Shown here piece by piece: positions 5,132 to 57,555 of a DNA stretch of 64,000 nt. The DNA lies in assembly GCF_003952665.1 (NCBI RefSeq), contig NZ_CP017947.1, forward strand, positions 124,001 through 188,000, in the 5' to 3' direction. The translations under genes and the position numbers were made by a program. Within the stretch, counting starts at the first letter, position 1. Each line of letters starts with the position of its first letter. The notes below the pieces were generated by a model. That model did not search any database. It was not told the DNA's origin and saw nothing but the letters and a program-made list of their open reading frames with translations. The DNA is from Bosea sp. Tri-49 (GTDB lineage Bacteria; Pseudomonadota; Alphaproteobacteria; Rhizobiales; Beijerinckiaceae).

Positions 5132-5147
5132 GAGTTCGCCCAGCCAG

Positions 5148-6162: not shown

Positions 6163-6164
6163 CA

Positions 6165-7640: not shown

Positions 7641-7690
7641 TGTCTGCTATTGGGCAGAACACCAACGTCAGTAGTTGGCGCAGAACCCCC
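7641..7690. repeat. Dispersed GTCCGC repeat, copy 1
   Basis: This is the only structure I see in 7422-7733 apart from the terminator that follows. Half A still folds: TGTCTGC and GCAGAACA around a short loop. Half B reads CAACGTCAGTAGTTGGCGC. Similar blocks recur about a dozen times in the intergenic gaps of this window. Confidence 0.55.
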
Positions 7691-7733
7691 CGGCGAGCGG
7701 ATGGAATGTCGTGGTGGCCGGGATACAGAAAAT

Positions 7734-7758
7734 CACTGCCGGGAAACTCCCGGCAGTG
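7734..7758 (-). terminator. Rho-independent terminator of the 15155-7777 operon
   Basis: A perfect 11-bp stem (CACTGCCGGGA and its complement) with a three-base loop is followed, on the minus strand, by ATTTTCT. It lies 18 bases after the stop of the isochorismatase-like gene, the last gene of the long minus-strand operon. Confidence 0.85.
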
Positions 7759-7776
7759 GCCTCGTGAACGCCTGGT

Positions 7777-8460: not shown

Positions 8461-8602
8461 GATGGTCTCCGGATCGCGATCCGTTGGTCAGCAGCGCCGT
8501 GCCGGCGCCAGGCATCAAGCAGCATTATCGCTGGCAGGATGGTCTTGAGATTGTCGTTCTTCGACGCGGGTTGACGATTCTCGCGGTCATTCCGTCCTCC
8601 CC

Positions 8603-11583: not shown

Positions 11584-11999
11584 CGTTCCGTCTCCTTCGT
11601 TCGGGCGAGATCGTCGAGCGCGACCAAGATGAACCCGCCGATCAGGCCGAGATGCTCGAAGAAGCCGTTCATCGCCATCATCCGCCCTTGCCCGACCGGC
11701 AGCTCCCAGAAGCGGACGGCGATGAAGGTCGCGACCAAAGTGAAGCCGGCGAGCGCAAGCGCGGCGAGCCAGCGCCAGCGGCCGGTCAGGATCATGGCGG
11801 TCGCCACGAGCTCGAAACCGATCACCCCGACCGCGAAGAGCGGCGCCGGTGTCAGGCCGAAATGACTCATCTCGGCGAGCGCGCCCTGAAAATCGAGGAT
11901 CTTGGTCACCGGCCCCTGGATATAGGCGGCGCAGAGCAGGAGCAGCGCGAACCAGCGCAATGCACCGACGATCGGTCCGGATGAATTGTTCCCGGCCAT
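11580..11999 (-). CDS. DoxX-family membrane protein
   Basis: A four-helix membrane protein of 139 residues. It begins with a helix carrying ALRWFALLLLCAAYIQGPVTKI and has the late GFFEHLGLIGGFILVAL helix typical of DoxX/DoxD-like proteins. I placed the start at 11999, one base after the stop of the amidohydrolase; the frame is open further upstream but only inside that gene. DoxX proteins are linked to quinone or thiol redox chemistry at the membrane. Here it sits between a Tat-exported amidohydrolase and an MFS pump. The function is not known. Confidence 0.88.
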   Translation of the reverse strand: MAGNNSSGPIVGALRWFALLLLCAAYIQGPVTKILDFQGALAEMSHFGLTPAPLFAVGVIGFELVATAMILTGRWRWLAALALAGFTLVATFIAVRFWELPVGQGRMMAMNGFFEHLGLIGGFILVALDDLARTKETER

Positions 12000-12000
12000 G

Positions 12001-13977
12001 TCACACCGCCCAGCAGGCGCAGCCGAGCGCGCCCCAGAAGCTCCTGAGGTCGGCGACCGGCAATTTGCTCGACCAGGCTCCGGCATGGTCGTGGCCGTGG
12101 ACGCCGCAGGAGCTGGCGCAACCACAATTGGTCAGCGCGGCGCGGCGCAGCGAATTCTTGCCGGCTCTATCAGGCTCGCCCCAGGCGCCATAGCCCTTGA
12201 AGGTCCGCACCGGCGACCAGTCGGGCATCGCCGGTGGCGGGGCGCTCTCGTCGACGCTGGCGAAGTCCCTGGCACCATAGACGATCCTGCCGCCGACGAC
12301 GGTGAGGTCGGCAGTGATGAACGAGATCTCGTCCTCCGGACAGGCGAAGAAGTCGCGATCGGGCACGATCAGGTCGGCAAACTGGCCGACCGCGATCTGG
12401 CCCTTCTTGCCCTCCTCGTTGGAGAACCAGGTGACCTTCTCGGTCAGCATGCGCAGCGCCGTCTCGCGGTCGAGGCAGTTGCGCTGCGGTGTGAGGCGCA
12501 GGCCTCCGACCGTCTTGCCGGTGACCATCCAGGCGAGCGAGACCCAGGGGTTGTAGGAGGCGACGCGGGTGGCGTCGGTGCCGGCCGAGGTCTTGACGCC
12601 CTTTTCCAGCAGTCGCGCCACCGGCGGCGTCGCCTCGGCAGCCGCCGCGCCATAGCGCTCGACGAAATACTCGCCCTGATAGGCCATGCGGTGTTGCACC
12701 GCGACGCCGCCGCCGAGCGCGGCGATGCGGTCGATCGAGCGCTCCGAAATCGTCTCGGCATGGTCGAAGAACCAGTTCAGGCCCTTCAGGGGCACGTCCT
12801 TGTCGACCTTCTCGAAGACGTCCAGCGCCCGCGAGATCGTCTCGTCATAGGTTGCGTGCATCCGCCAGGGCCAGCGGTTCTCGGCGAGGACGCGCACGAC
12901 CCCCTCGAGATCGCCCTCCATCTCCGGGGGCATGTCGGGCCGCGGCTCGCGGAAATCCTCGAAATCGGCGGCGGAGAAGACCAGCATCTCGCCGGCGCCG
13001 TTATGGCGGAAATAATCGCTGCCCTGCTTGTACTTGGAGGTCTTCGTCCAGTTGAGGAAGTCGTCCTTCTCCTGCTTCGGCTTCTGCGTGAACAGGTTGT
13101 AGGCGAGGCGGATGGTCATCTGCCCGTCATCGGCGAGCTTCTGGATGACGGCGTAATCATCAGGATAGTTCTGGTAGCCGCCGCCGGCATCGATCGCGCC
13201 GGTGACGCCGAGCCGGTTGAGCTCGCGCATGAAATGGCGGGTCGAATTGATCTGATAGTCGAGCGGGAGCTTCGGCCCCTTCGCCAATGTCGCATAGAGG
13301 ATGTTGGCGTTCGGCCTGGCGAGCAGCAGCCCGGTCGGGTTGCCGTTGGCGTCACGGGTGATCTCGCCGCCCGGCGGCTGCGGCGTGTCCTTGGTATAGC
13401 CCACCGCCCGCAGCGCAGCGCCGTTGAGCAAGGCGCGATCATAGAGATGCAGGATGAAGACCGGCGTGTCGGGAGCGACCGCGTTGAGCTCCGCGATCGT
13501 CGGCAGGCGCTTCTCGGCGAACTGATGCTCGGTGAAGCCGCCGACGACGCGCACCCATTGTGGCGGCGGCGTCACCGCGACCTGGCGCTTGAGCATGGTC
13601 ATCGCATCGGCGAGCGAGCGCACCCCGTCCCAGCGCAGCTCCATGTTGAAGTTGAGGCCGCCGCGGATGATGTGCAGGTGGTTGTCGATCAGGCCGGGCA
13701 GCGCGCTGCGGCCCTTGAGGTCGATCACCTTCGTGTTCGGCCCGGCATGGGCCATCACCTCGGCCTCGCTGCCGACGGCGAGGAAGGTGCCGTCCTTGAC
13801 CGCGACCGCGCTGGCGCCCGGGTTGCTGCGGTCGAGCGTCGTGAAACGACCGTTGCTGAAAATCAGATCCGCGATCATCGCTGGTGTTCCGCTTGGCTGG
13901 GGCTGCCCCTGGGCCAGGGCTGAGGAGGCAAGGCCGGGCAAGGCCAGGCCGCCTAGGATCGTACGCCGTGTCGGCAT
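12001..13977 (-). CDS. YtcJ-type (Amidohydro_3) amidohydrolase, exported, with Cys/His-rich tail
   Basis: A 658-residue metal-dependent hydrolase. The N-terminus MPTRRTILGGLALPG looks like a Tat signal. GLIDNHLHIIRGG supplies the first metal-binding HxH, HATYDE and FFDHAE follow in the barrel, and AGTDATR supplies the late Asp. After the barrel, about 70 residues carry CGCASSCGVHGHDHAG and end in GALGCACWAV, a Cys/His-rich tail that could bind a metal or cofactor. The start codon overlaps the XapX stop (TGATG). YtcJ relatives act on amide or carbamate bonds; the substrate here is unknown. Confidence 0.88.
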   Translation of the reverse strand: MPTRRTILGGLALPGLASSALAQGQPQPSGTPAMIADLIFSNGRFTTLDRSNPGASAVAVKDGTFLAVGSEAEVMAHAGPNTKVIDLKGRSALPGLIDNHLHIIRGGLNFNMELRWDGVRSLADAMTMLKRQVAVTPPPQWVRVVGGFTEHQFAEKRLPTIAELNAVAPDTPVFILHLYDRALLNGAALRAVGYTKDTPQPPGGEITRDANGNPTGLLLARPNANILYATLAKGPKLPLDYQINSTRHFMRELNRLGVTGAIDAGGGYQNYPDDYAVIQKLADDGQMTIRLAYNLFTQKPKQEKDDFLNWTKTSKYKQGSDYFRHNGAGEMLVFSAADFEDFREPRPDMPPEMEGDLEGVVRVLAENRWPWRMHATYDETISRALDVFEKVDKDVPLKGLNWFFDHAETISERSIDRIAALGGGVAVQHRMAYQGEYFVERYGAAAAEATPPVARLLEKGVKTSAGTDATRVASYNPWVSLAWMVTGKTVGGLRLTPQRNCLDRETALRMLTEKVTWFSNEEGKKGQIAVGQFADLIVPDRDFFACPEDEISFITADLTVVGGRIVYGARDFASVDESAPPPAMPDWSPVRTFKGYGAWGEPDRAGKNSLRRAALTNCGCASSCGVHGHDHAGAWSSKLPVADLRSFWGALGCACWAV

Positions 13978-14258
13978 CAGCTGCGCTCCCTTTCCGTATC
14001 CGTGTTCGCCTCGACCAGCGGCTTGCCGCCGCGGGGCAGATGGCCGAAGACATGCGGCTTGACGTGGTGTTCCCAGGACTGCTTCGTCGGCTCCTTCGCC
14101 CAGATGGCGCGCAGGAGCGGCGGCAACTGTTCACCGATCAGGATACCGAGCAGCCCGATCAGCGCTACGATCGGCGGCGCCGGCGAGCGCACGCTGATCA
14201 GGCTGTAGATGATGCCGACCAGGAGGCCGGCGCCGAGCGACATCAGGTAGAGTTTCAT
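13977..14258 (-). CDS. XapX-domain small membrane protein
   Basis: A 93-residue protein with two hydrophobic helices. The hairpin SLGAGLLVGIIYSLISVRSPAPP and the following IVALIGLLGILIGEQ match the XapX domain, a short membrane domain of unknown role. A polar C-terminal stretch follows. I chose the ATG at 14258 over one at 14279 because a GGAAC box lies just ahead. XapX genes often sit beside YtcJ-type amidohydrolases, as here, so the two may form one functional unit. Confidence 0.85.
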   Translation of the reverse strand: MKLYLMSLGAGLLVGIIYSLISVRSPAPPIVALIGLLGILIGEQLPPLLRAIWAKEPTKQSWEHHVKPHVFGHLPRGGKPLVEANTDTERERS

Positions 14259-14318
14259 CGTTGTTCCGCTGCTCCCCATAGGGGGCGGCAGTCCGCCGGG
14301 CCGCCGCCGCAGGATTCG

Positions 14319-15155
14319 TCAGCCGCGCACGAAGGCGAGCAGATCGGCGTTGAGGACCTCAGCGTTCACAGTTAGCATGCCGTGGCCGTAGCCGGGATAG
14401 GTCTTCAGCGTGCCGTTGCGCAGCAGCTTGATTGCCGCATGGGCCGATGTGCCGATCGGCACTATTTGATCGTCCTCGCCATGAAGCACCAGCGTCGGGA
14501 TGCCGATGGCCTTGAGATCCTCGGTCTGGTCAGTCTCGGAAAAGGCCTTGATGCCATCGTAATGGGCCTTGGCGCTGCCCATCATGCCCTGCCGCCACCA
14601 GTTCTGAACAACGCCGGGAAGGAGCGTCGCGCCGTCGCGGTTGAAACCGTAGAATGGCCCCGCGGGAACATCGAGGAAAAACTGCGCCCGGTTCCCGGCC
14701 GTCGCCTTGCGGAAGCCGTCGAAAACCTCGAGCGGCAGACCGTCGGGATTGGCCGCGGTCTTCAGCATCAGCGGCGGCACTGCGCTCACCAGGACGGCCT
14801 TGGCGACCCGTCCGGCCGGCTCGCCGTGCCGGGCGACATAGCGCGCGACCTCGCCGCCCCCCGTCGAATGGCCGATATGCACGGCGTTGCGCAGGTCGAG
14901 GGCCTCGACCACGGCGAAGGCATCCGCCGCGTAGTGATCCATGTCATGGCCGTCCCCGACCTGGGCCGAGCGTCCATGTCCGCGCCGGTCATGGGCGACG
15001 ACGCGATAGCCGTGAGCGAGGAAAAACAGGATTTGCGCATCCCAATCGTCCGACGACAGCGGCCAGCCATGATGGAAAACGATCGGCTGGGCCTGCTTCG
15101 GTCCGAGGTCCTTGTAGAAGATATCGACCCCGTCCAGCGTGGTGACGAATGCCAT
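14319..15155 (-). CDS. Alpha/beta hydrolase (non-haem chloroperoxidase/arylesterase-like)
   Basis: A soluble enzyme of 278 residues. It has the oxyanion segment FHHGWPLSSDDW, the nucleophile elbow GHSTGGG (Ser), the acid Asp in LVLHGEDDQIVP and the His in GYGHGM near the C-terminus. This set is typical of cofactor-free haloperoxidases and arylesterases with perhydrolase side activity. It is the first gene of the minus-strand operon and faces an HxlR-type regulator across 226 bases, which should control it. The physiological substrate is unknown. Confidence 0.9.
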   Translation of the reverse strand: MAFVTTLDGVDIFYKDLGPKQAQPIVFHHGWPLSSDDWDAQILFFLAHGYRVVAHDRRGHGRSAQVGDGHDMDHYAADAFAVVEALDLRNAVHIGHSTGGGEVARYVARHGEPAGRVAKAVLVSAVPPLMLKTAANPDGLPLEVFDGFRKATAGNRAQFFLDVPAGPFYGFNRDGATLLPGVVQNWWRQGMMGSAKAHYDGIKAFSETDQTEDLKAIGIPTLVLHGEDDQIVPIGTSAHAAIKLLRNGTLKTYPGYGHGMLTVNAEVLNADLLAFVRG

Positions 15156-15381
15156 TTGAGTGATCCTTTGCTTTTAATGACGAGCGGCGCACGATTGAGG
15201 CCGCACCCGACAGGGATTTTGCGGGTTCTGGAAAGGCCTGGAGGCTGCTACGAACTGCCAGACGTCCGACAGATCGCATGGCTCCAGCATCGATCGAATG
15301 CCCTCGGCAATCTCGCTCATCGCCAGTGTCAATAGGACGAGAGCAAGACGAAGGCCATTAGTTACCTGAAGGATACCAGTC

Positions 15382-15726
15382 ATGAGTGCTCATGCTGATG
15401 AAGAGGCGCTTCATATCGACAGCGGACACTGCGCTGCCGACGGTTTCCTCAAGTTCTTCTCACAGGAGTGGATGAGCCATATCGTGTTTTCACTGGCACG
15501 CCAGGGCCCTTTGCGCTTCGGGGCCCTGCGGCGGCAGCTTCCACCCAAGATCTCGGCCCGCGTTCTGTCCGCCCGCTTGAAGTCCCTGGAGGCGGCCGGC
15601 TATGTCGAACGCCGCGATCTCAGCGGACGCGTGCTGCATGTCGAATACTCTCTCACCGCCTCGGGGCGCGCGGTCGACGCAGCACTTTCGGGCAGTGAAA
15701 ACCTGCTGGCCCGCGACGCGCGCTGA
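15382..15726 (+). CDS. HxlR-family transcriptional regulator
   Basis: A 114-residue winged-helix protein. The span FFSQEWMSHIVFSLARQGPLRF and ISARVLSARLKSLEAAGYVERR are the HxlR helices and wing. A cysteine near residue 17 (GHCAAD) could be a redox switch, as in HypR and YodB of this family. It is divergent from the seven-gene minus-strand operon. The short dyad TTACC-TGAA-GGATA directly ahead of its start codon overlaps the ribosome site and may be its operator. It likely senses electrophiles or oxidants. Confidence 0.9.
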   Translation: MSAHADEEALHIDSGHCAADGFLKFFSQEWMSHIVFSLARQGPLRFGALRRQLPPKISARVLSARLKSLEAAGYVERRDLSGRVLHVEYSLTASGRAVDAALSGSENLLARDAR

Positions 15727-32650: not shown

Positions 32651-32756
32651 TAGGTCAACCAGTGAAGAGCCCTGCGAGGCAGAGCCCCAAAGACGGGCTA
32701 TTCGCTCCGCACCCGGACGACGTCAACCAGCTGCGGTCCAAACGCTGTCGCTTGGC

Positions 32757-32930
32757 TCAAAAGCTGACCCTGAGCTGTGCAGTTCCCCCGATGCGGCGGG
32801 TGTTCCCGGAGAGTTCCGAATCGACGCGCATGCCGAAGCTGACGGTCTGGCTGAGCCTGGTGTCGGCGCCGGCGGCGAGCAGAGCGGCATTTCGGTCGAG
32901 CCGCGCGCCAGTCGCTCCGGCGCGGCGGCT
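32757..32930 (-). pseudogene. 3' remnant of autotransporter gene
   Basis: On the minus strand about 55 codons, from ARLDRNAALLAAGADTR to IGGTAQLRVSF and stop, repeat the last beta strands of the autotransporter that ends at 39309 (there ARADRNTALLAAGADIR and IGGTAQLRVRF). The DNA match is long and near-perfect in the middle, including an uninterrupted run of more than 40 bases. The rest of the gene is missing. The fragment lies between the repeats and the RTX gene and marks one edge of a duplicated unit. Confidence 0.85.
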
Positions 32931-32991: not shown

Positions 32992-34332
32992 TCAGGCGAA
33001 GATCAGCTGATCGCCGAGCTGGGCCGCGGTGAAGTTGGTGACGATGATGCCGCCAGAGCCGCCGAGCGCGGTCGTGCTGATGACGACGCTGCTGCCGCTA
33101 TTGGTGAAGGTGAGCTGCCCGGCTCCGATGCCCTCGAAACGCAGATAGTCGAAATTGTTGGCGCTCTCGCCGAAGCCGTCGACGACGTCGAAGATCCCGG
33201 CCTCGAAATCCGCAGCGAGCGTCCAATACTGGTCATTGCCGGCGCCACCAGCGGAATAATCCTTGCCGGCCCCGGCGATGAGCTGGTCGGAGCCTTCGCC
33301 GCCGAAAAGCTGGTCGGCCCCGCCCTGGCCATAGAGCCAGTCATTACCGAGCTGGCCGTACAGGTGATTGATGTTGCCGTCGCCGATCAGGTAGTCCTGC
33401 TCGACCGACCCCGTCAGGGCCTCGACGCCTAGCAGCGTATCGCCCTGGGCATCGCCGCCGACGCCCATGCCGACATCGAGCCGCACCACGACACCATTGA
33501 GCGAGCCGTCATAGCGCGCGAAGTCGAAGCCGGACCCGCCGACAAGCCAGTCGGCGCCAGCGCCGCCGTCGAGCTGGTCGCTATCGGCTGCGCCATCGAG
33601 ATAATCCGTGCCTGCTCCGCCGAGCAGCGTGTCGATGCCGGAGCCGCCCAGGAGCGCGTCATTATCCGCACCGCCATCGAGCGTGTCGCTGCCGCGCCCG
33701 CCATCGAGATAGTCGTTGCCGGCATTGCCGACGATGGTGTCGTCGCCATCGCCGCCATCAAGCACATCCGCGCCGGTGTCGGCATCGCCGATTTCCCCGA
33801 AAGTGCTGGCCTTGCTGCTCACTTCCGGCAGGTCCGAGATGCCGTTGTTGGTGTAGTTGACCGTCTTGGCGTAGCCAGCCGGCACGGAAAACGTTCCGCC
33901 GCCGTAGATCGTGTCGTTGCCGGCGCCGCCGAAAATAGTGTCCGCCCCGGTCCCGCCTTGTAGAAAATCGTCTCCCAGCCCCCCGAAAATGGTATCATCA
34001 CCACCTTCGCCATTCACGTAGTCGAAGCCCGATTGACCAAATATCAGGTCGTTTCCAATCCCGCCGAGAATGACATCTGCCTCAACAGTCAAGCTTCCAA
34101 CGATATCACCGTCACGTCCACTTGCAGAATTATCGCCGTAGACAACATCATTGCCGCCGAAAGCAATAATATAATCCTCTTGTGACCCGCCTTCGATATA
34201 GTCAATTTTTGCACTTGCAAAAATATAGTCATCGCCATCAAAGGAAAAGATATCCGTTGCTAAGTTAGGTACGTCAAAAATTTCAGACCGACCTGCAACG
34301 CCTTGATAGATTCTCTTGTTTGAAAACGACAT
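32992..34332 (-). CDS. RTX-type calcium-binding secreted protein
   Basis: A 446-residue protein built mainly from glycine/aspartate nonapeptides (GGxGxDxhx; for instance GGIGNDLIFG, GGLGDDFLQG, GGAGNDTIYG), which fold into calcium-bound beta rolls outside the cell. Type I secretion would be expected; no HlyB/TolC genes are in the window except the HlyD-type gene near 46 kb, whose link is unproven. No enzymatic domain is visible. It begins 14 bases after the P450 stop with an AAGGATGG ribosome site, so both share a message. The first 300 bases of the gene are AT-rich (about 44% G+C), unlike the rest. Confidence 0.88.
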   Translation of the reverse strand: MSFSNKRIYQGVAGRSEIFDVPNLATDIFSFDGDDYIFASAKIDYIEGGSQEDYIIAFGGNDVVYGDNSASGRDGDIVGSLTVEADVILGGIGNDLIFGQSGFDYVNGEGGDDTIFGGLGDDFLQGGTGADTIFGGAGNDTIYGGGTFSVPAGYAKTVNYTNNGISDLPEVSSKASTFGEIGDADTGADVLDGGDGDDTIVGNAGNDYLDGGRGSDTLDGGADNDALLGGSGIDTLLGGAGTDYLDGAADSDQLDGGAGADWLVGGSGFDFARYDGSLNGVVVRLDVGMGVGGDAQGDTLLGVEALTGSVEQDYLIGDGNINHLYGQLGNDWLYGQGGADQLFGGEGSDQLIAGAGKDYSAGGAGNDQYWTLAADFEAGIFDVVDGFGESANNFDYLRFEGIGAGQLTFTNSGSSVVISTTALGGSGGIIVTNFTAAQLGDQLIFA

Positions 34333-34346
34333 TAAACCATCCTTAT

Positions 34347-36002
34347 TTAGAATTTAAGCGCTGTCGCGACATTACAACTTTCCGTTACGGGATCGCCTCG
34401 GTTCGCTAGGACTTTTGATCGGCCAGTAGTGGCCGCTTTGGGTGGGATATCAGGGGACGTTGACAGCGGAACCAATTGTACCGGCACGGATGATGGCGTC
34501 ACCGAAACCGTCGCAGAGAAGGTCACGGCGACGTCGTGCAGTGGCACCAGTTCAAACTCCTGGATCAGGGTGCTCAGGAAGCGCGTTAACAGGTATTCGG
34601 CCTGATGGCGCCCAATGCAGTGTCGCGCTCCCGCGCCGAACGGCATGGCGCTTGCGATTGACGCGGCGGGTCGCTCACCGCCTGGTCCCGCAGCGAATCG
34701 GCAGGGGCTGAATAGCCGCGCGTCCGCGAAGAGTGCTTCGTTCAGGCCTACGGCGGTCTTCATCCACATCACATTCGTCTTGGCCGGGATGCTGATCCCC
34801 TCCACCTCCATCGAACGCGTCTCGGATATCTTCGAGCTAAACGGAACCGGCGGAAATAGGCGCATCGTTTCGTGGACGATGTTCAGCACGAAGGGATCCC
34901 CTGCGATCTTGCCTGCATCTCCTGCCTCGAGCACGCGGGCTCGGGCCTCGTCCTGTACATGCGGATTGCGGGAAAGCAGGTAGAGCGCCTGGGCCATGGT
35001 GTAGCTCATGGCGTCGGTTCCTCCGGCAACGAGCGAGATCAACTCCTCGACGCATTCGTGGTGACTCCAGGTCACCGTGGCGCCTGGATCAAGCTTCAGC
35101 CTGACAAGCCTTTCCAGCACATCCCACGGCTCGTTCCCTCCACCGCCCAAACCGCGTTGCAGCCGTCGCTCCAGAACGGCCTCAAGATGTGTGAAGAGGT
35201 AGCGATATGCGGCTCTTGCCCGCCTCGCTCTGATCGGGAACAGCCATCGCACGAAGAAGGGATGAAACGCCCGGAAGCTGATCGCCTCCTCAAGCTCTCC
35301 AATGGCAGCCAGATATGCGCCGAGGTCCGACCGGTGCTCCCACTCGTCGCCGCAGAGGAATGAACCCAGGCTAGTCGCGCTCCAGTAATGGAGGTCGGCC
35401 TTCAAGCTGCCATGCCGGGTCTGCCCGGATCGCCAGCTTCGGAGATAAAGCGCCGAGACTTCCTCCAGACGACCAGCACCTTGCTGCACGGCTTTTGGTG
35501 TAAACTGCGGATTCATCTGTTGCCGATGGGCGGTATGCCTCTCGCCCCTCCTCAAGCCCATCAAGCTTCGAGGCAGCACGGTGCTATCGGCAACCCGGTT
35601 TGAATCCATGTCCTTATGGCCAAGGTCCTTCGGCGCGACCGAAAGCGATACAAACGGCGTGTTGCCCCACGCCATGTGGATCTTCACGACCGGGCCGTAC
35701 ACCCGATGCAACTCCACCAGCGCCCGATCACGAGCGCCATGATTGTGGAGGAGGAGAAACTTAAGGCTCCCGACGAAGAACGACGGCTTCGGGCCGGGAA
35801 TGTGGGCATATCGTCGAAGCTCGAGGCATCGGAACGCCACACCCAGCGCCAAGACGCCGACCGGGGCGAGCGCCACGAGAAGCCATGCTTCGGGGGAAGA
35901 CAGCATCCGGGCAAAGGCCAAGATTGCCACGACAAGCACAATTGTGATGACGAAACCATAGAGGCATTCGTACAGTTTCAGGAGTGCCGCGGCGCTCTTC
36001 AT
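34347..36002 (-). CDS. Cytochrome P450 with N-terminal membrane anchor
   Basis: A 551-residue haem monooxygenase. The haem loop FGAGARHCIG matches FxxGxRxCxG with the thiolate Cys. HETMR is the ExxR of helix K, and AGGTDAMS is the oxygen-activating helix I. Residues 1-60 hold two hydrophobic segments followed by the hinge HIPGPKP, the plan of eukaryotic microsomal P450s; most bacterial P450s are soluble and near 400 residues. The first ten residues (MKSAAALLKL) copy the signal-peptide start of the secreted protein at 42640-42966. The start at 36002 follows GGAGA. The redox partner is not in the window. Substrate unknown, perhaps a lipid. Confidence 0.9.
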   Translation of the reverse strand: MKSAAALLKLYECLYGFVITIVLVVAILAFARMLSSPEAWLLVALAPVGVLALGVAFRCLELRRYAHIPGPKPSFFVGSLKFLLLHNHGARDRALVELHRVYGPVVKIHMAWGNTPFVSLSVAPKDLGHKDMDSNRVADSTVLPRSLMGLRRGERHTAHRQQMNPQFTPKAVQQGAGRLEEVSALYLRSWRSGQTRHGSLKADLHYWSATSLGSFLCGDEWEHRSDLGAYLAAIGELEEAISFRAFHPFFVRWLFPIRARRARAAYRYLFTHLEAVLERRLQRGLGGGGNEPWDVLERLVRLKLDPGATVTWSHHECVEELISLVAGGTDAMSYTMAQALYLLSRNPHVQDEARARVLEAGDAGKIAGDPFVLNIVHETMRLFPPVPFSSKISETRSMEVEGISIPAKTNVMWMKTAVGLNEALFADARLFSPCRFAAGPGGERPAASIASAMPFGAGARHCIGRHQAEYLLTRFLSTLIQEFELVPLHDVAVTFSATVSVTPSSVPVQLVPLSTSPDIPPKAATTGRSKVLANRGDPVTESCNVATALKF

Positions 36003-36118
36003 AACGGGTCTCCGGCAGGGCGACACAACCCTTGCGCGGAACTAGGCAGAACGTGACGGCACCCGTCCTGAAACCCGAACGAAAAACATCCGAAATTTAC
36101 CCGAAATTCAACGGGATC
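35972..36118 (-). repeat. Duplicated promoter/leader block, copy A
   Basis: About 145 bases, covering the first ten codons of the P450 gene, its ribosome site and its upstream control region, recur with few changes at 42936-43085 in front of the small secreted-protein gene in the same orientation. Identity ends sharply within the coding sequence after CTGAAACTGT and upstream near CAACGG. The remaining gap up to 36345 shows no gene. Confidence 0.85.
36070..36106 (-). promoter_or_regulatory. Four 11-bp-phased TTTC boxes
   Basis: Read on the minus strand, TTTC occurs at 36106, 36095, 36084 and 36073 (GAAA on the plus strand at 36070, 36081, 36092 and 36103), exactly 11 bases apart, within AATTTCGGGTA, AATTTCGGATG, TTTTTCGTTCG and GGTTTCAGGAC. 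OmpR/PhoB-type winged helices bind such one-turn direct repeats. A protein of this type is encoded next door at 36346-37701. Confidence 0.65.
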
Positions 36119-39206: not shown

Positions 39207-39308
39207 GTGCTGCAAAGTCACGTTTAGGTCCAAAGCCCACTCGGCCAATGCGGCTGACCTCTTGCCACCGTCGCTGAAATACCTCTGAGCGTCTGCCGAT
39301 GGCCCGTC

Positions 39309-42281
39309 TCAGAACCTGACCCTCAATTGCGCGGTTCCGCCGATGCGGCGGGTGTTCCCGGAGAGTTCCGAATCGACGCGCATGCCGAGGCTGACGCTCT
39401 GGCTGAGCCTGATGTCGGCGCCGGCGGCGAGAAGCGCCGTATTCCGGTCCGCCCTGGCACCGATGGCCGCGAAGCTCGCGCCGGGCAGGCCGTTGAGCGA
39501 AGCAGCGAGGTCGGCGTCGCGCTGGTAATAATGCGCCCAGGCGGCGCGCACGAAGCCGGTGACGGGAGTAGCGCCGGCCAGCAGGTTGGCGTCGAGCTGT
39601 AGCCCGAGCTCGCTGCGGCTGGTCATGTCGGAACGCCCCGCCAGCGTCAGCGCGCCGGCGGCGGCACCGGTTCCGTCACCCTCAATTGCGACGGGGCTGC
39701 TCGCGCGCACCGCCTGAAAGGCGGCGAGTGGCGAAAGAGTGAGGCCGCCCCAGTTTGCCACCGGCAGGCTCGCTTCGACCCGGCCGCTCCAGGCCTGCGT
39801 CGCGTAGGAGGCGGTGACGCCCGTGCGACCGAGCGCGGGAATGGCACGGGTGGTGTCGGTGTCGAGCCTGGCATAACCGAGTGCGGCGGCAAGGTTGACG
39901 GTGCCCAGCGTGGTGCGGCCATGGAGGCCAGCCTGGAAGACATCGGCCTCGGCCTTGCCGAGACTGCCCGAAAGCGAGGCGCGCGATTGGCCGCCCGCGA
40001 CCGCGATGCCCGCGACCGTGTTGGAGCCGAGCCGGATGTCGACGCCGACCGCGAGATGAGCATCGGAGAGGTTGCGGTTCGCCGAGCCCACCGCCCGGTC
40101 GCCGTCATTGCGTCCAGTCGAGCTGAAGGTTGCGCCCCAAAGCGAGAAACGCGTCGGATCCAAGGTCGAACGACCTGGGCCGCCCTGCCTTGAGGGCAAG
40201 TCGGCGGTGAAGCCGGCAGCGCCGCCGGGGCCGTTCTGGGAACCGGCGAGGCGGCCTGTCTCCGAGCCGTCGAGCATGGTGCCGAGGAACTGGCCAGCCG
40301 CGCTGTTGGCCACGGCTGGCGCTGCGGTATGGACCTCGCCCGAGAGCTGGTTCACGGCGGCGGGGATCGCGGTAGCCGGCAGGTTGTAGATTCCAAAAAG
40401 ACCCGAGGGGTCTGCGCCATTGGCAACCGCGGCATCGATGGCCGAGGCGACCGCATAAGCATTAGCCGGGCGGCCGACGCCAAGTCGTGGCGATGGAGCG
40501 GACGGGACGAAAGGCGGGACGACGGGGTCGATGATCGGCGCAAGCGGCTTCGGCGTCAGCGTCAACTGCACGTCGTTGCTGGTGTAGCTCACCGCGCTAG
40601 TGACGCCGTCGCCGAAGGAGCCGGTCGTGTCGACCGTGCCGAAGGTGCCACTGCGCCCGCCCGCTGCCGCGAGCAGCGTATAAGGCGTCGAGAACAGATA
40701 GGCGCCGCCCAGCGGCACGATCCGCAGCGTGCCGCCCAGCGCGGCCGTGCCGCTGACGTTGATCCGGTCGGAGACGGCGCCCTGCACTTCGGCGAGGTAA
40801 AGCGAGCCCGCCCCCAGCACCAGGTTGCCGTTGACCGTCAGCGTGCCCGGCGAGTTGCCCGGCGCCAGCGTGCCGTTGACCGTCAGCGACGGCAGTTGCC
40901 CCGAGCCGCCCAACGTCGCGCCGGCGGCGACCGTCACCCCGGAAGACGATGCGATCGAGCCGTTCACGATCAGGACGCCGCCGGTGACCATGGTCGCGCC
41001 GGTATAGGTGTTGGCGCCCGCGAGCGTGAAGGCGCCTGTACCGACCTTGGTCAGCGAACCTGTGCCCGAGAGCACGCCCGCGAACGTCGTGCCACCATTG
41101 TCCGAGCCCGTGCTTAGCGTCGCTGCGCCCAGGGTCACCGCGCCTGCGCCCGCAATCGAGCCGATCGCCTGGTTGAAGCCATTGAGATCGAGCGAGGCAC
41201 CGGTCGCAAGGGTGAGGGCCGAGCTCGGTGCGAGGCTGCCCGCAGCCCCAGCCAGCAGGGTGCCGGCATTGACCAAGGTCGCGCCGGTGTAGCTGTTGAC
41301 GCCCGAGAGTGTGAACGTGCCCGTTCCGCTCTTGGTGACAGTGCCCGAGCCCGAGATGGCGCCGCTGATGGTGCCGTTTCCGGAGCCTTCGAGGCTGAGC
41401 GCATGGCCGCCCGTAGCGATCGCGCCGCTGAAGGTCGCGGTCGTGTCCAGCACACGGATCGCGCTGGAGCTGGTCAGGGAGATGTTGTTGCCGATGGTGC
41501 GCGCACCCGTGGTCGACAGCGTGCCGCCATTCAGCGTGACCAAACCGGTGCCAAAGGCCGCGTCATTGGCCGCGACGATCGAGCCGGCACCGATCGTCGT
41601 ACCGCCGGCATGGACATTGGCGCCTGACAGGGTCAACGCGCCGGTACCGACCTTGGTGAGGATCACCCCAATATCGATCCTGCCGGCATAGGTGGTGTCC
41701 GAATTCAGGCTGCCAACCGACAGCGCACCGAAGTCTATGGAGCCATTGCCTTCAATCGAACCGATCGACAGCGTGTTTGCGGATAAACTCCCGCCCTGGC
41801 CGATGAACCGCGAGCCCGCAGCCGAGACGCTGGGACCGCTGAAAATGACGAAGCTACCTACTGTTGCAATGAGCGTCGTCGCGCCGGTAACCGTGCCGCC
41901 GATCGCAATCGCCCCACCCGCTGCCGCGATCAGCGTCTGCTCGACGCTCGAATTATTGGTGATGGCCTGTACAACCAAAGAATGGTTCGGGGTCATCGAC
42001 AGTGTGTAGGCGAGCGCGTTGCTGTTGTATTGGATTGACGTGATCAAATTGTCGGTTGTGACAGTGACATTTCGCACCGCCGTGGGGCTGTTGGTGAAGG
42101 TCGCTGTGCCGTTTGTCGGCACCGCTCCGCCAGTCCAGTTCGAATTGAGGTTGAAGTCGCCCGTGGCGCCCAGCCATTCGGCAGCCTGGGTGAGAGCCGG
42201 AGAGCCGGCGGCAAAAGCCGTGACACTGACCCCGAGCAGCAGCGCGAGACGCAAAGAGATAGTCGTATTGCGATGGAGCAT
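39309..42281 (-). CDS. Autotransporter (type Va) with PATR passenger repeats
   Basis: A 990-residue surface protein. A signal peptide (ALLLGVSVTAFAAGSPALTQA) is followed by a passenger with several copies of the autotransporter-associated repeat (GTGALTLSGAN, GTGTFTLSGVNSYTGAT, GTGAFTLAGANTYTGAT and so on), which form a beta helix. PGNSPGTLTVNGNLV is the usual late passenger motif. The last 280 residues form the 12-strand barrel ending in LRVRF. No protease triad or adhesion motif is evident. An upstream TTG would add 12 residues. A 3' fragment of a sister gene lies at 32757-32930. Confidence 0.92.
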   Translation of the reverse strand: MLHRNTTISLRLALLLGVSVTAFAAGSPALTQAAEWLGATGDFNLNSNWTGGAVPTNGTATFTNSPTAVRNVTVTTDNLITSIQYNSNALAYTLSMTPNHSLVVQAITNNSSVEQTLIAAAGGAIAIGGTVTGATTLIATVGSFVIFSGPSVSAAGSRFIGQGGSLSANTLSIGSIEGNGSIDFGALSVGSLNSDTTYAGRIDIGVILTKVGTGALTLSGANVHAGGTTIGAGSIVAANDAAFGTGLVTLNGGTLSTTGARTIGNNISLTSSSAIRVLDTTATFSGAIATGGHALSLEGSGNGTISGAISGSGTVTKSGTGTFTLSGVNSYTGATLVNAGTLLAGAAGSLAPSSALTLATGASLDLNGFNQAIGSIAGAGAVTLGAATLSTGSDNGGTTFAGVLSGTGSLTKVGTGAFTLAGANTYTGATMVTGGVLIVNGSIASSSGVTVAAGATLGGSGQLPSLTVNGTLAPGNSPGTLTVNGNLVLGAGSLYLAEVQGAVSDRINVSGTAALGGTLRIVPLGGAYLFSTPYTLLAAAGGRSGTFGTVDTTGSFGDGVTSAVSYTSNDVQLTLTPKPLAPIIDPVVPPFVPSAPSPRLGVGRPANAYAVASAIDAAVANGADPSGLFGIYNLPATAIPAAVNQLSGEVHTAAPAVANSAAGQFLGTMLDGSETGRLAGSQNGPGGAAGFTADLPSRQGGPGRSTLDPTRFSLWGATFSSTGRNDGDRAVGSANRNLSDAHLAVGVDIRLGSNTVAGIAVAGGQSRASLSGSLGKAEADVFQAGLHGRTTLGTVNLAAALGYARLDTDTTRAIPALGRTGVTASYATQAWSGRVEASLPVANWGGLTLSPLAAFQAVRASSPVAIEGDGTGAAAGALTLAGRSDMTSRSELGLQLDANLLAGATPVTGFVRAAWAHYYQRDADLAASLNGLPGASFAAIGARADRNTALLAAGADIRLSQSVSLGMRVDSELSGNTRRIGGTAQLRVRF

Positions 42282-42639: not shown

Positions 42640-42966
42640 TCAGTCGAAACTCTCCACGTCGTCGGCTTCATCATCGTGCAGCATCTTGCTAAGCAGGACG
42701 TAACGGTTGATCGTTGTAGGCGTAACGTCGAGAGTGCATCTCTCGCGCAATTTGGCCGCCTCCTGATGCACGACCAGTCGCATCTCCTGGGGGTGGATCG
42801 CGTACGCCGCGCTCCAGATTAACATGCGCTGAAGATTGAGATCCCAGCTCAGGCACGCGGTTTGGATCCGTGTCAGTGGCTGTTTCGACTGACTGGGCTC
42901 GGCGGCTGCGACCGCCATCGCGGCGAGTAACATCAACAGTTTCAGGAGTGCCGCGGTGCTCTTCAT
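42640..42966 (-). CDS. Small secreted protein
   Basis: A 108-residue protein with a signal peptide (MKSTAALLKLLMLLAAMAVAAAEP). The mature part has two cysteines (TACLSW and RERCTLD) that could form a disulfide, a helical centre and an acidic end (DDEADDVESFD). I do not recognise the family. Promoter, ribosome site (GGAGA) and first ten codons are a copy of those of the P450 gene, so both are probably controlled together. It lies upstream of the autotransporter on the same strand, more than 300 bases away. Confidence 0.7.
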   Translation of the reverse strand: MKSTAALLKLLMLLAAMAVAAAEPSQSKQPLTRIQTACLSWDLNLQRMLIWSAAYAIHPQEMRLVVHQEAAKLRERCTLDVTPTTINRYVLLSKMLHDDEADDVESFD

Positions 42967-43085
42967 GACGGGGTCTCCGGCAGGGCGACAACATGGCCCT
43001 TGCGCGGAACTAGGCAGAACGTGACGGCACCCGTCCTGAAGCCCGAACGAAAAAAATCCGAAATTTACCCGAAACTCAACGGATC
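42936..43085 (-). repeat. Duplicated promoter/leader block, copy B
   Basis: Counterpart of 35972-36118. The whole block, from the signal-peptide codons through the ribosome site to the A/T-rich control boxes, is kept with a few substitutions and short indels. Confidence 0.85.
43038..43074 (-). promoter_or_regulatory. 11-bp-phased TTTC boxes, second array
   Basis: GAA(A/G) on the plus strand at 43038, 43049, 43060 and 43071, again 11 bases apart; the one nearest the gene has changed to GAAG. The array sits 72 bases ahead of the start codon, against 68 in the P450 copy. Confidence 0.6.
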
Positions 43086-53064: not shown

Positions 53065-54387
53065 GTGAAATCTAGATCGATCTTGAGAGAACTCAAAGAC
53101 GACAGCGACAAAAGAATGCTGCCAAGGCTGCGGGTAATACAGGTAGGAGACATCCATCTCGTCCGAACGGCGAAGACGGAGCGCCATCTGGACGATAAGG
53201 ATCCACGCTTTCCGAGCGGGGTTCGCAACCTCATGGCAGGCTCCCCAATCAAGACAGTGTTTCGCACGCTCCATCGACTCATTGAGCAAGAACCCATCGC
53301 TTCGCTGTTGTTTATGGGCGATTTCGCCGAAAAGGGAGATCTTCCTGGTTTTGAAGCCTGCGTGCGCTACCTTGCTGAAGCGCTCCAAATCGGATCTGGC
53401 CGGCGCCTAAGTGCACTTCAAGTCGGATTCATATCTGGCAATCATGACATTAGCCGCGACCTCGCGGCGAAACCTGGCCTACGTACGAAATTTCTGCCGC
53501 TGCAAAAAGCCATGGCGGAGCTGGGCCTGCCAAGCCTTCCGATTGAGCAGCCCATCTGGCTCAACACTACCGAAGGAAACAGTCGAATAGACATTGCTCT
53601 TCTTAACAGTTGCTGGGGGTGCGGCGCCAAGGAGTTTATACCAGAAGAGTTCCGCACAGAGATTTCCAACGCTATCAATACTGCAATTAGCCAAGGTCTC
53701 GATGAGCGTGCGACCACCGCCTATTACGATCGCCAACTCGATACGCCGGCTTTCAGCAACAACACTGTGCAGTACCTGATCGATGCCGTGCCCAAATTGC
53801 CCGGTAGTTCCCTGATATTGGCCTGCGCTCATCACAATCTTCTGCCGCAGCATATGCCACGGCTCGCGCCCTATACCGAGCTAGTCAACTCTGGCGTAGT
53901 ACGCCGCGCACTTCTCGCCTTGGAAAGACCGGTTCTCTATCTCCATGGTCATATTCATGACGATCCAGTCGAGATAATTCAGACGCCCACGGGAGGGCCT
54001 CTTGTCTGCATTTCTGCACCTGAGGCGTCCGAAGGCTTCAACGTTCTAGAGCTCGTCTTCACTCAATCAGGATTGCCGCTAACCTGCTACCTTCGACCCT
54101 GGCGCTTCGATGGGGGCGTATTCCACGAACGGACCAGGCGAGTGATTCCGATTAGCGGCAGCCGCCGCAAGCCCTCGGATCCCTCCTTGTCGGCCATTTA
54201 CCAAAAGATCGTTGCCGAGCGAGACTGCTACTGGCACGCGCTCGTAGGTTGCGCAAAGACAGTTGGAGCACCTGAACCTGATGGGGCCACCGAGGAAGCC
54301 CTCGAAACGCTAGTCTCCGACCAGCTCATTACGATCGAGAACTATGATCTCGACCGAGAGCATTGGATCATAAGGTCTAGACTATGA
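53065..54387 (+). CDS. Calcineurin-like metallophosphoesterase of a three-gene module
   Basis: A 440-residue protein with every di-metal motif of the fold: VGDIHL (Asp29, His31), GDFAEKGD (85-92), SGNHD (124-128), CAHH (254-257) and HGHIHD (294-299). It should therefore be an active phosphodiesterase, nuclease or nucleotide hydrolase. After residue 320 comes a domain I do not recognise. The start is uncertain: GTG at 53065 or ATG at 53116, neither with a good ribosome site. The stop overlaps the ATPase start (ATGA). G+C content and codon use are clearly lower than in the flanks, which suggests transfer. Confidence 0.82.
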   Translation: MKSRSILRELKDDSDKRMLPRLRVIQVGDIHLVRTAKTERHLDDKDPRFPSGVRNLMAGSPIKTVFRTLHRLIEQEPIASLLFMGDFAEKGDLPGFEACVRYLAEALQIGSGRRLSALQVGFISGNHDISRDLAAKPGLRTKFLPLQKAMAELGLPSLPIEQPIWLNTTEGNSRIDIALLNSCWGCGAKEFIPEEFRTEISNAINTAISQGLDERATTAYYDRQLDTPAFSNNTVQYLIDAVPKLPGSSLILACAHHNLLPQHMPRLAPYTELVNSGVVRRALLALERPVLYLHGHIHDDPVEIIQTPTGGPLVCISAPEASEGFNVLELVFTQSGLPLTCYLRPWRFDGGVFHERTRRVIPISGSRRKPSDPSLSAIYQKIVAERDCYWHALVGCAKTVGAPEPDGATEEALETLVSDQLITIENYDLDREHWIIRSRL

Positions 54388-56513
54388 ATCTGCGCGATCT
54401 CAATCCATTCCGGCCCACGCGCTGGGAACATCAACGCACCGGCCATCATCTAATCTGGTTCGCCAAGACCGCCGAAGAGCTGACTGGGGACAAATCAGTA
54501 TATATTCGAGGGAGCCGCGGCAGCGGTAAAACTACCCTTTTGAAAAGCATCTGTTGGGAGGATCTCACTCGGAATCCATCGCTTATTAGGCAGCGGAGCT
54601 TGACTGATTTTGCATACATTGGCGTTTATATTAAGTTCCCCGATCACGTCAGCATGTCTCTTTCTTACTCGGATTGGGGTAAGATCTATCCCCAATCTCC
54701 CAATCCCGAGCTCGAAATGCACCGCTTCTTCTCACTTGCGGTTGAGCTTGTCTGTCTCGATCGGTGCCTGACCGCATGCCACGAGCTTCGCGTCGACGGT
54801 GCGGTCAGCCTGATGCCTAGCGAGGAGCACGCAATCGTCAGCGCAGCACTCAATGAATTTCCGGCCCTCGGCGCCTTTTCTGATCAGCTTAGCAGTTTCC
54901 ACGGCCTCGCGCGGGTGGCGCGCACGATTGTGCGCGAAATGAACCAAGCTTGCGGACGAGGTAATATCGCGGCGCTTAATCACCGTTTACCGGCCCGCGA
55001 GCCTGGTGAGCTACTCAAGTTCGTGACTGAACGACTAGCCGAGGCCATATCTCTCACGAACGACCCTCATGGGGGGGCAATTGGATTTAAGTTCTGTCTC
55101 GATGATTGCGAAGTTCTGAGTTCAGGTCAGCAAAAAAGCCTCAACACGCTGGTCCGTATAAGCAAGCACCCAGTATCCTGGGTCGTAAGCTCGGTTGGCT
55201 CGTTCTTCGACACATCTGATACATTCATCGACCAACAGCCGCTTACCGATCATGATCGCCGCATAGTGCCACTCGATTCTCGGAGCTCCGACGAATTCCG
55301 GGCTCTCTGTCAGGCCGTTTTGTCTCTGCGCCTCTATTTCGCCGTGAGTCAGGAGGCGCAAACAGCCTATACAGGACAAATTCAGGAGTACTTCCCGCTT
55401 GATACGCGGCTTGGCAAGCGCAATGTCAATGATCTCTTTGCATCCCTCATCGATGAGTCAAAGAGTGTATACGCCACGCGCGTCGAGCACGCAGCCAAAC
55501 GCCTTCGTGAAGCACTAGTACAGCGATTTGATCGCTATCGCGACAAATACCCAGCTGAATCTACCGGCTACCCCTATTACGAAGCCTATGTTTTGCTGCT
55601 TTGGAATGGGCGAGAAGATGCTTTCAAGGTCGATTTTGATCGTGGCGATGAAGAGCGGATGCTGTCGCTTGTCGATCGCTTCGATAACGGCTCGTTCGAG
55701 GCTTGGCTGCGGCGCAAGCAAGCGGCGGCGCTTCTGCATTTTGCGGCCAAGCTTGGATCGCGCCGATTACCGCTTGGCGGAACTCCTATCATAATTTCAC
55801 TTGCTGACGGCTCGGTGCGAGATTTCTTGGAGATCATCGGTGAAATTTTCGAGTCTTACTGCCGACGCCAACGCATTGACCGGGGTGATACTGCGGCACT
55901 CGACTATTTCGCTTCGTCACGCACGCGCATTGGCTGGCCCATCCAGACCCGCGGCATCTATAGCGCAAGTGCCTCATACCTGAGCGGTATCAGCAATCGG
56001 TCCGAACTCGACGCAAGCGTCGTCACTCGCTTCATCGATGGCCTGGGGTTGTATACGGCGGCGCTTCAGTCGAATCCCAATGATCCCTCGGTCCTAGGCC
56101 GCGCGGAAAGGGGCATCTTCAGCGTCCGAATCCCGCATATCGCCGGCGATGATGCTAAGCAGCAATTGGACGAAGAGCTTGTTTGGAATGTCATTCGTCA
56201 AGCTGAGCTCGCCGGCTATATTCGCACTCAATCCGTGAGGTTCGGGGCTGGCGCAGCTAAATATGTGCTCGACAACGATGCGCGGATCATAAATTTCCGC
56301 CTTCACCGGCGATTTGCCCCACATTTTCGCTTTTCTTATAGGGGCGCATATGAACCAGTTTCACTGGCATTCGAAGATGTCGCACTGCTGCTCGACAGAG
56401 TGAATCAGATCGATTCGAAGAGCTGGGTGCAGCGCATGCTAAACCGCCCTGCGCGGCCCGATTTTGGCGAACAACTGAAATTCGATCTCATCCTGGCCCC
56501 CGAAGATGACTGA
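54384..56513 (+). CDS. P-loop ATPase of the three-gene module
   Basis: A 709-residue protein. The N-terminus carries Walker A GSRGSGKT (43-50) in the setting YIRGSRGSGKTTLLKSICWE. A Walker-B-like strand FKFCLDDCEVL (235-245) is followed by SSGQQKSLNTLVR, and then PVSWVVSS as sensor-like strand. This is the plan of the ORC/STAND-like ATPases common in defence systems. The C-terminal 350 residues match no domain I know and contain winged-helix-like stretches. It overlaps both neighbours (four and eight bases), so the three products should be made in fixed ratio and may form one complex. Confidence 0.8.
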   Translation: MNLRDLNPFRPTRWEHQRTGHHLIWFAKTAEELTGDKSVYIRGSRGSGKTTLLKSICWEDLTRNPSLIRQRSLTDFAYIGVYIKFPDHVSMSLSYSDWGKIYPQSPNPELEMHRFFSLAVELVCLDRCLTACHELRVDGAVSLMPSEEHAIVSAALNEFPALGAFSDQLSSFHGLARVARTIVREMNQACGRGNIAALNHRLPAREPGELLKFVTERLAEAISLTNDPHGGAIGFKFCLDDCEVLSSGQQKSLNTLVRISKHPVSWVVSSVGSFFDTSDTFIDQQPLTDHDRRIVPLDSRSSDEFRALCQAVLSLRLYFAVSQEAQTAYTGQIQEYFPLDTRLGKRNVNDLFASLIDESKSVYATRVEHAAKRLREALVQRFDRYRDKYPAESTGYPYYEAYVLLLWNGREDAFKVDFDRGDEERMLSLVDRFDNGSFEAWLRRKQAAALLHFAAKLGSRRLPLGGTPIIISLADGSVRDFLEIIGEIFESYCRRQRIDRGDTAALDYFASSRTRIGWPIQTRGIYSASASYLSGISNRSELDASVVTRFIDGLGLYTAALQSNPNDPSVLGRAERGIFSVRIPHIAGDDAKQQLDEELVWNVIRQAELAGYIRTQSVRFGAGAAKYVLDNDARIINFRLHRRFAPHFRFSYRGAYEPVSLAFEDVALLLDRVNQIDSKSWVQRMLNRPARPDFGEQLKFDLILAPEDD

Positions 56514-57555
56514 CACGCTTGCTATCGGTCGGCTCTCACTTCGCCAGCGGCAGCTTGTCGCGGGCGAAATCCTCGTGGGCCCTTATGACCTCGTTATTGT
56601 CGCGGTGAGTTGGGAGGCCCGTAACGCTACCGCACTTCAAGCAATTGGCGGGACGACAATTGAGACTCTGATGATCCGCTTCGAGTCTCCCAAACCCACG
56701 GTTGACGCCAAGAAGGATGCCAGCCAAGCGGCTCTCGAGGCGTTGTGCCCGAATAACAAAATACTTCGGCTAAGTCGATCTATAGCGTTTGATAAGAATA
56801 GTACCGATCTAGAAAACGAATTGCGCGATCGCTTTCTGGCCAAAGGAAGGCCTCTGCGTATCCTAGTCGACATCAGCTGCATGCCCCGATCCTATTTGAG
56901 CTTCCTGTGTGGGCTCGGATTCGCCAACGATTATATCTGCCGCTTCGACTGCCTCTATTCGGAAGGCCAGTATGATATGAGGGGTTCGCCTAGCCCTGGG
57001 GGACCGCTGTCGATCATTTCTGAAGGAGAATGGACGTCGCTCCAGATACCATACCTTGAAGCAAGCGAGACATTTCCTGTTGAGCGTGACCTTATTGTAA
57101 TACTTGGTGGAGAGATCGGATATTCTCTGCCGTTTATCGAGCGCTACGAGCCTAACCGACTCAGCATCGTTTTTATTCGTGATGGCCTTGACCCGGAAGC
57201 TCTCACAGGCAGCGAGAGAGCGGCGTATAGCGAACTCACCTCTGAGCCAAACTTAATGCGGGAAGACTTCGCCATTAACGACATGATTGGTGTAGTCGCA
57301 CACGTGTGGCGCTTCTGCACGACAGATTGCGGGCGTCCCGTTATTGGCCTTGCGATCGGTTCCAAAGCGCAGTCGCTCGCGCTCGCTCTTGCCGCGCTGG
57401 ACCTCGACAATCTTGAGGTCGTATGCAGGATACCCAGCGCCTATTCTGACCGTGATGTCGAGCCGAGCGGCCGTATTTTTTTCTACGGTATTGAAGACCG
57501 TTTTGAGCCCATGTCTTACCTCCCAGAGGAGCCTGCTAAGCTGGCCAAAGCGTAA
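56506..57555 (+). CDS. Unknown Rossmann-like protein of the three-gene module
   Basis: A 349-residue protein that I cannot assign. It seems to have two alpha/beta halves. The first has YDLVIVAVSWEARN (27-40) and RILVDISCMPRSYLSFL (118-134), a D-x-S-x-M-P-R motif at a strand end that could bind a nucleotide or form an active site. The second has RDLIVILGGEIGYSLPFI and PVIGLAIGSKAQSLALALAA. There are no membrane helices. The coding sequence is AT-rich for this genome. Its start overlaps the ATPase by eight bases. It might sense a nucleotide signal or act as effector; both are guesses. Confidence 0.7.
   Translation: MTDTLAIGRLSLRQRQLVAGEILVGPYDLVIVAVSWEARNATALQAIGGTTIETLMIRFESPKPTVDAKKDASQAALEALCPNNKILRLSRSIAFDKNSTDLENELRDRFLAKGRPLRILVDISCMPRSYLSFLCGLGFANDYICRFDCLYSEGQYDMRGSPSPGGPLSIISEGEWTSLQIPYLEASETFPVERDLIVILGGEIGYSLPFIERYEPNRLSIVFIRDGLDPEALTGSERAAYSELTSEPNLMREDFAINDMIGVVAHVWRFCTTDCGRPVIGLAIGSKAQSLALALAALDLDNLEVVCRIPSAYSDRDVEPSGRIFFYGIEDRFEPMSYLPEEPAKLAKA

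Follow-up and report, generated by a model that had tools for sequence, protein, structure and literature searches.

The question raised by this locus is whether three tightly packed genes of Bosea sp. Tri-49 constitute a mobile, defence-type unit and, if so, how such a unit might work. The 6.45 Mb genome lies on two contigs, and the window, by which is meant the whole stretch of 64,000 nucleotides that was analysed, corresponds to C2:124001-188000. The coordinates of the open reading frames (Table 1) bear out the overlaps of four and eight bases ascribed to the three genes in the preliminary description. Its remark that the block is poorer in G+C than its flanks also holds, since 1-kb windows gave 53.6-55.5% G+C across the operon as against about 60-68% on both sides, and GC3 was 0.577-0.583 in the three operon genes as against 0.726-0.874 in seven flanking genes. 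Another low-G+C stretch of the window lies at 33501-35000 (G+C 0.546-0.561). The first gene was confirmed as a plus-strand reading frame, but the GTG start given for it at 53065 is doubtful; because the homologues begin at about the residue encoded by the ATG at 53116, translation probably starts there and would yield 423 amino acids.

Table 1. Features of the three-gene operon, in window coordinates.
Feature	Position	Strand	Open reading frame (length)	Basis
Calcineurin-like metallophosphoesterase, probable effector	53116..54387	+	53065-54387 (440 aa, from the alternative upstream GTG)	PF00149; metal-site residues; start from homologues
ORC-CDC6-like P-loop ATPase, probable signalling hub	54384..56513	+	54384-56513 (709 aa)	PF24389 match; Walker A and B
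Tandem-CARF protein (CARF6), probable nucleotide sensor	56506..57555	+	56506-57555 (349 aa)	CARF6 profiles; CARF fold
D-x-S-x-M-P-R motif codons (residues 122-128)	56869..56889	+		End of CARF-A strand 117-122 (DSSP of model)

The operon edges had also been described as copies of a dispersed repeat, and three repeat scans spoke against this. Among 20 of the 39 repeat families none joined both edges, the scan of 51.5-59.5 kb revealed only two-copy near-matches of 14-25 nt, and a 9-mer common to both edges has four copies in the window (1.46 expected), a number reached in 5 of 100 shuffles; a dispersed repeat was accordingly rejected as the operon boundary. Two repeat pairs with their copies some 7 kb apart were observed at 35972-36114 and 42936-43082 (near-identical, 95-97%) and at 32756-32897 and 39308-39449 (89% identity). 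No empty site was demonstrable among the Bosea relatives compared: flanking-gene homology without the trio ends at 57789 in G021 and at 51676 in G008, while in G020 both flanks were matched on a single contig with about 20 kb between them.

The first gene product matches PF00149 (2.5e-6, residues 22-298, 28.5 bits against a cut-off of 21.5), a generic family and its sole match in Pfam; PHROGs likewise returned a generic metallophosphoesterase. The metal-site residues D29, H31 and D86 are present in 23 of 24 alignment rows, the remaining row having a gap, and N126, H127, H256, H257, H294 and H296 in all 24. The score and the full set of metal-site motifs both place the protein in PF00149, and its metal site is intact, in agreement with the earlier claim of an intact enzyme. 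At a threshold of 0.01 the only solved structure matched by the phosphoesterase profile was LMO2642 (2xmo; 1.8e-4 over 67 profile positions).

That the second gene specifies an ORC-like P-loop ATPase was equally borne out by Pfam, PF24389 being matched with 279.1 bits against a cut-off of 27 and the Walker A and B motifs being present in 25 of 25 rows. The fold is ORC/BrxC/RdrA-like, the P-loop reads GSRGSGKT, and a C-terminal R-L-H-x-R region is highly conserved. PHROGs gave weak matches only, and PDB profile searches with the ATPase and CARF alignments returned nothing useful.

The third protein, which had been thought unassignable, proved to be a tandem CARF protein both by profile search and in the structure model, and an unfamiliar fold was thus rejected. 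It matches the PADLOC model PDLC01919 over its full length (4.6e-18) as well as six other CARF6 models, a group which reportedly stems from the classification of Makarova et al. 2020. The CARF (Rossmann-like) fold was confirmed and marks the protein as a CARF/SAVED-type sensor; CARF-A spans approximately residues 27-156 and CARF-B 192-316, which leaves little space for an effector domain. The D-x-S-x-M-P-R motif already noticed is present as DISCMPR, and D-x-[ST] is retained by most CARF6 proteins. R39, D122 and K287 are conserved in the two domains, R39 and K287 being the sole invariant residues across a divergent CARF6 set, and on the strength of these three residues the protein is probably a sensor of a (cyclic) nucleotide. 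The role of nucleotide-driven sensor, previously given to the ATPase, therefore falls more likely to the CARF protein. At about 3e-219 PDLC01919 also matches places in two other genomes, G510 and G654; that in G510, the one of the two inspected by itself, belongs to a phosphoesterase-type trio (L092), so that the model was evidently built on the phosphoesterase-type clade. No match to the third protein was found in PHROGs or in the phage collection.

A scan of genome contigs with the ATPase alignment revealed 20 loci, all in Alphaproteobacteria except for one record named 'bacterium'. The order phosphoesterase-ATPase-CARF6 is kept in 19 of these, in three of which (L035, L039 and L050) the phosphoesterase gene is truncated by the contig end; the sole exception is L045, in which the ATPase is shortened and CARF6 is missing. 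The junctions range from +1 to -4 bases between the first two genes and from -4 to -19 between the second and third. A comparison of distance matrices over 22 loci, from which the partial L035, L039, L045 and L050 were left out, gave correlations between the three proteins of r = 0.966, 0.979 and 0.986, values as high being reached in none of 2000 permutations, and this co-divergence is partly an effect of two deep clades. In the loci found the homologues are thus not mostly solitary, and given their order, overlap and co-divergence the idea of solitary or housekeeping genes was rejected.

Among 101 genomes of relatives the third protein was matched in only two, Bosea sp. Tri-49 included. A tree built from 48 ATPases unites those of the phosphoesterase type in one clade (27 rows, support 100/98) within which the ATPase of the window groups with that of Sphingobium psychrophilum, a member of a different order, the program issuing a long-branch warning at the deep joins. 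Horizontal transfer fits both this relationship and the contrast in GC3.

The family extends beyond the phosphoesterase type. In the class, PF24389 exceeded its cut-off in 8 of 289 genomes, among them that of Bosea sp. Tri-49; two of the seven others (G191 and G193) were inspected and yielded L030 and L031, and in the remaining five the match was confined to the N-terminal P-loop part. In both L030 and L031 CARF6 directly follows the ATPase, the partner being a fused kinase or PRTase-CE. Their CARF6 proteins matched 19 PLSDB records, of which 11 were inspected, and a broad CARF6 profile recovered 4 of 337 genomes of the class and 11 of 398 of the phylum (Bosea sp. Tri-49 in both), all hits but one being inspected. 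CARF6 follows the ATPase in all 21 further cassettes inspected, and the third gene specifies PRTase-CE in 17 (L031, L068 twice, L069-L072, L091, L093, L095, L096 and L099-L104), HD-CE in two (L097 and L098) and a protein kinase in two (L030, where it is fused to the ATPase, and L073, where it is separate). Every inspected CARF6 gene with enough flank lies immediately 3' of an ATPase, no judgement being made for G125 and G568, in which the contig ends at or near CARF6, or for the second CARF6 of L101, which lies at the locus edge. This rule was tested from the CARF6 side, and ATPases without CARF6 may exist.

The PRTase-CE cassettes usually include HAD and PfkB genes and often NADAR; one of them is on a plasmid of Actinomycetota and another on one of Betaproteobacteria, and in L101 the PRTase matches are split over two frames. 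The ATPases of this type lack the P-loop arginine. A plasmid of Rhizobium tumorigenes (L068) carries its two PRTase-ATPase-CARF6 cassettes at 5031-9227 and 11525-15685, with a gene for a patatin-like phospholipase between them. Both HD-CE cassettes have a C5 DNA methylase gene nearby, and L097 also DUF6339.

The ATPase and the tandem-CARF protein are probably a fixed core to which an exchangeable effector is added. The explanation that we favour, and hold with moderate confidence, is that the Bosea genes form an anti-phage operon of this modular family in which the effector is the calcineurin-like phosphoesterase. Observed directly were the arrangement and overlap of the genes, the domains of their products, the parallel divergence of the three proteins and the replacement of the third gene; the catalytic and ATP-binding motifs are intact and the CARF motif residues conserved. 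Upon infection the CARF protein would bind a (cyclic) nucleotide in the pocket between its two CARF domains and hand its state to the ATPase, which would oligomerise or remodel in an ATP-dependent manner, like RdrA, BrxC or ORC, and so free or activate the phosphoesterase; this enzyme would then cut nucleotides or nucleic acid and bring the phage, perhaps also the cell, to a stop.

It is mainly the exchange of the third gene that casts the phosphoesterase as the effector and the ATPase-CARF6 pair as the switch. Calcineurin-like enzymes include cyclic-nucleotide phosphodiesterases, and a means of clearing the ligand frequently accompanies CARF proteins. Together with LMO2642 as the only solved-structure match, these points favour a defensive operon of another design, in which the phosphoesterase would be an off-switch, hydrolysing the nucleotide sensed by the CARF protein in the manner of ring nucleases, with the ATPase as the working part. 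We regard this arrangement as unlikely, for the same slot is also held by PRTase-CE, HD-CE and protein kinase, and a kinase or PRTase is no obvious ring nuclease. Position and exchange are the grounds on which the phosphoesterase is probably to be seen as an effector that can be swapped, not as an off-switch.

The switch would need a signal. A profile search for the Cas10 palm gave no match in the Bosea sp. Tri-49 genome, which sets the operon apart from the ancillary modules of type III CRISPR, and a Cas10-driven accessory was rejected for that reason. Of the 20 other trio genomes nine matched the palm at 0.001 and four passed the cut-off (best 2.3e-7); since E. coli also passes the cut-off, these matches are read as probable GGDEF proteins. 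Nor did profile searches reveal a CD-NTase, as expected of CBASS, among the three operon genes. SMODS exceeded its cut-off in 3 of 21 trio genomes and was clear only in the genome of L032 (4.9e-46), the only match in Bosea sp. Tri-49 being on the other contig, C1, with 24.3 bits against a cut-off of 26.5. The C1 region around 1262012 (L055, 1411-2984) contains a SMODS-like nucleotidyltransferase of 321 residues followed by a protein of 202 residues with N-terminal hydrophobic helices, a pair which by eye we take to resemble, perhaps, a small CBASS locus. Because the operon holds neither Cas10 nor CD-NTase, its ligand would have to be supplied by another part of the cell, by the phage or by nucleotide metabolism.

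The want of a dedicated nucleotide synthase in the operon, the ORC/BrxC/RdrA-like fold of the ATPase and the conservation of its R-L-H-x-R region would also suit a defence module in which the ATPase itself senses the phage, recognising DNA or a phage protein in ORC-like fashion, while the CARF pair tunes the response with an ordinary cell nucleotide. This, too, is improbable in our estimation, as R39 and K287, alone invariant in the divergent CARF6 set, point to the importance of a specific ligand.

The best-known task of CARF domains is to receive the cyclic oligoadenylate that Cas10 makes. With a CARF protein as the probable receiver in the modular operon, there is the tentative possibility of a class of bacterial immune systems whose fixed switch consists of an ORC-CDC6-like ATPase and a tandem-CARF protein that stands by itself, and can be coupled to effectors as unrelated as a phosphoesterase, a phosphoribosyltransferase set, an HD hydrolase and a protein kinase. 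Such a switch would read a nucleotide that stems from neither Cas10 nor a known CD-NTase of the cell; the signal could be a nucleotide derived from the phage, something that the ATPase produces or the disappearance of a nucleotide that is normally present. The family is sparse, with a stand-alone CARF sensor that follows an ORC-type ATPase wherever its surroundings are readable, swappable enzymes and, in Bosea sp. Tri-49, a genome of its own without a Cas10 match. If defensive, it implies another infection-signalling nucleotide and a modular ATPase relay.

Carriage on mobile elements and the company kept by the operon bear on its purpose. Searched against PLSDB, the third protein matched 30 records, all from rhizobial or Agrobacterium genera; 27 of them were typed as conjugative and many are near-identical pAt plasmids. 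Six of the seven plasmid loci inspected carry the trio; in the exception (L008) the phosphoesterase went unmatched, the ATPase is shortened and an IS630 gene lies on that side. A scan of viral contigs with the phosphoesterase alignment found an entire trio on one contig (L129; at least one in 600 stretches). When the ATPase and CARF alignments were used in its place there was no match, so that scans of this kind, L129 having been found, evidently miss distant copies. In G046 the gene adjoining the trio on the opposite strand specifies a P22-type portal protein.

Judged by annotated names, the neighbours of the plasmid copies include AbiE, a restriction endonuclease and TrlF (L004), an anti-phage dGTPase and a restriction endonuclease (L007), a Mov34/ThiF pair (L003) and toxin-antitoxin genes (L006 and L008), with no defence gene among the neighbours of L005 and L052. 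In this small set defence genes thus adjoin three of seven loci on a strict count and five of seven with toxin-antitoxin genes included, as against one of seven control stretches taken half a record away. The control stretch concerned (L126, NZ_CP121643.1, 3757-9505) contains a defence-like group of a P-loop NTPase, a SIR2 protein and a nucleoside deoxyribosyltransferase.

Around the 20 genome loci 182 neighbours were predicted, and 159 remained once 23 further away had been dropped; L048, on the same contig as L029, was dropped from the set, and L035 had no predicted neighbour. These 159 were compared with PADLOC in two sets and without a matched control, some of the models (ATPases, methyltransferases) also catching unrelated proteins. 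Among the matches listed (25 of 58 and 25 of 221 matched families), the first set was the poorer, with PDC-M01A (9.2e-88), PDC-M34B and PDC-S12, and the second contained GajA (1.5e-235), a type I methyltransferase (1.1e-215), BovA (6.8e-197) and LmuB (3.4e-111). Twenty of the 159 were scanned singly at 1e-15, and seven matched while 13 did not. The matches lay in five of the 20 loci (L032, L040 with two, L041, L047 and L050) and included Lamassu LmuB, PDC-M01/PtuA, type IIG and type I restriction; the single scan also identified a TnsB-like transposase beside L044. Reading by eye of the genes between 48 and 64 kb of the window revealed no defence gene. The gene thyX, for FAD-dependent thymidylate synthase, recurs after CARF6, downstream of the trio in L004, L040, L041 and L046, in pieces in L003, more than 5 kb away in L042 and downstream of the kinase type in L073; it may replace a nucleotide consumed by the effector or be a chance hitch-hiker.

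The plasmid copies, the viral copy and the copy beside the portal gene could be taken to indicate a counter-defence or plasmid/phage-fitness cassette, its CARF protein sequestering and its phosphoesterase destroying the signals of host CBASS or type III CRISPR, but this is very unlikely given that some copies adjoin other defence genes, that the PRTase, HD and kinase variants are better suited to effectors, that a sponge needs no ATPase hub and that most trio genomes have no clear Cas10 or SMODS target. An anti-phage role, as in the modular operon that we favour, is likely. The preliminary description's notion of a conserved, horizontally moving unit of defence type is supported by the arrangement of the genes, with their overlaps, in 19 of 20 genome loci, by the co-divergence, by carriage on plasmids and a phage, by the defence neighbours of some copies and by the nearest relative, which belongs to a different order.

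The same source called the system undescribed, and this stands in part. No description of the trio was found among the literature matches listed, which were mostly titles and starts of abstracts and did not cover Makarova 2020, Burroughs 2015 or Burroughs and Aravind 2020, and the word 'CARF6' was met there only in an unrelated context. On the other side, CARF6, the ORC-CDC6-like ATPase and two of the effectors have library entries. The third protein falls wholly under the PADLOC entry 'CARF6--CARF_CARF_CARF', which covers the CARF protein only and does not name the ATPase or the phosphoesterase. In Pfam, the consecutive accessions PF24389, PF24390 and PF24391 (ORC-CDC6-like, PRTase-CE and HD-CE) cover the ATPase and two alternative effectors, whereas the Bosea phosphoesterase has the generic PF00149 alone. 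Their being consecutive makes it probable that the sister systems were catalogued together, reportedly perhaps by Burroughs and Aravind 2020.

Several known systems share parts with the operon. The phosphoesterase shows a weak local match (1.8e-4, residues 64-132) to the anti-phage phosphoesterase DS9_1 (NF053862), with which it has the metallophosphoesterase core in common, but its 20.5 bits fall far short of the cut-off of 420 and it is not a member. RADAR combines RdrA with RdrB; the Bosea ATPase gave an insignificant match to the NCBIfam RdrA model (0.29), and no RdrB adenosine deaminase lies beside it, its partners being the phosphoesterase and, as an addition, the CARF protein. A CARF/SAVED-type sensor is shared with the effectors of CBASS and the ancillary effectors of type III CRISPR (Can1, Csm6, Cap4/Cap5), but here sensor and effector are separate proteins with an ATPase standing between them. 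A further likeness, which also weakens the claim of novelty, is to the fused kinase-ATPase-CARF proteins described in 2014 (PMC4012209; PADLOC 'CARF6--CARF_STK_AAA'), likewise with an AAA+ ATPase that has the P-loop arginine and is joined to CARF; the kinase-ATPase of L030 matches the model PDLC01925 at 5.1e-70. Compared with that form, the Bosea operon has three separate genes and a phosphoesterase instead of the kinase. CARF6 and PF24389-24391 are thus already catalogued, and what appears to be new, judging from the literature matches listed, is the trio with a phosphoesterase.
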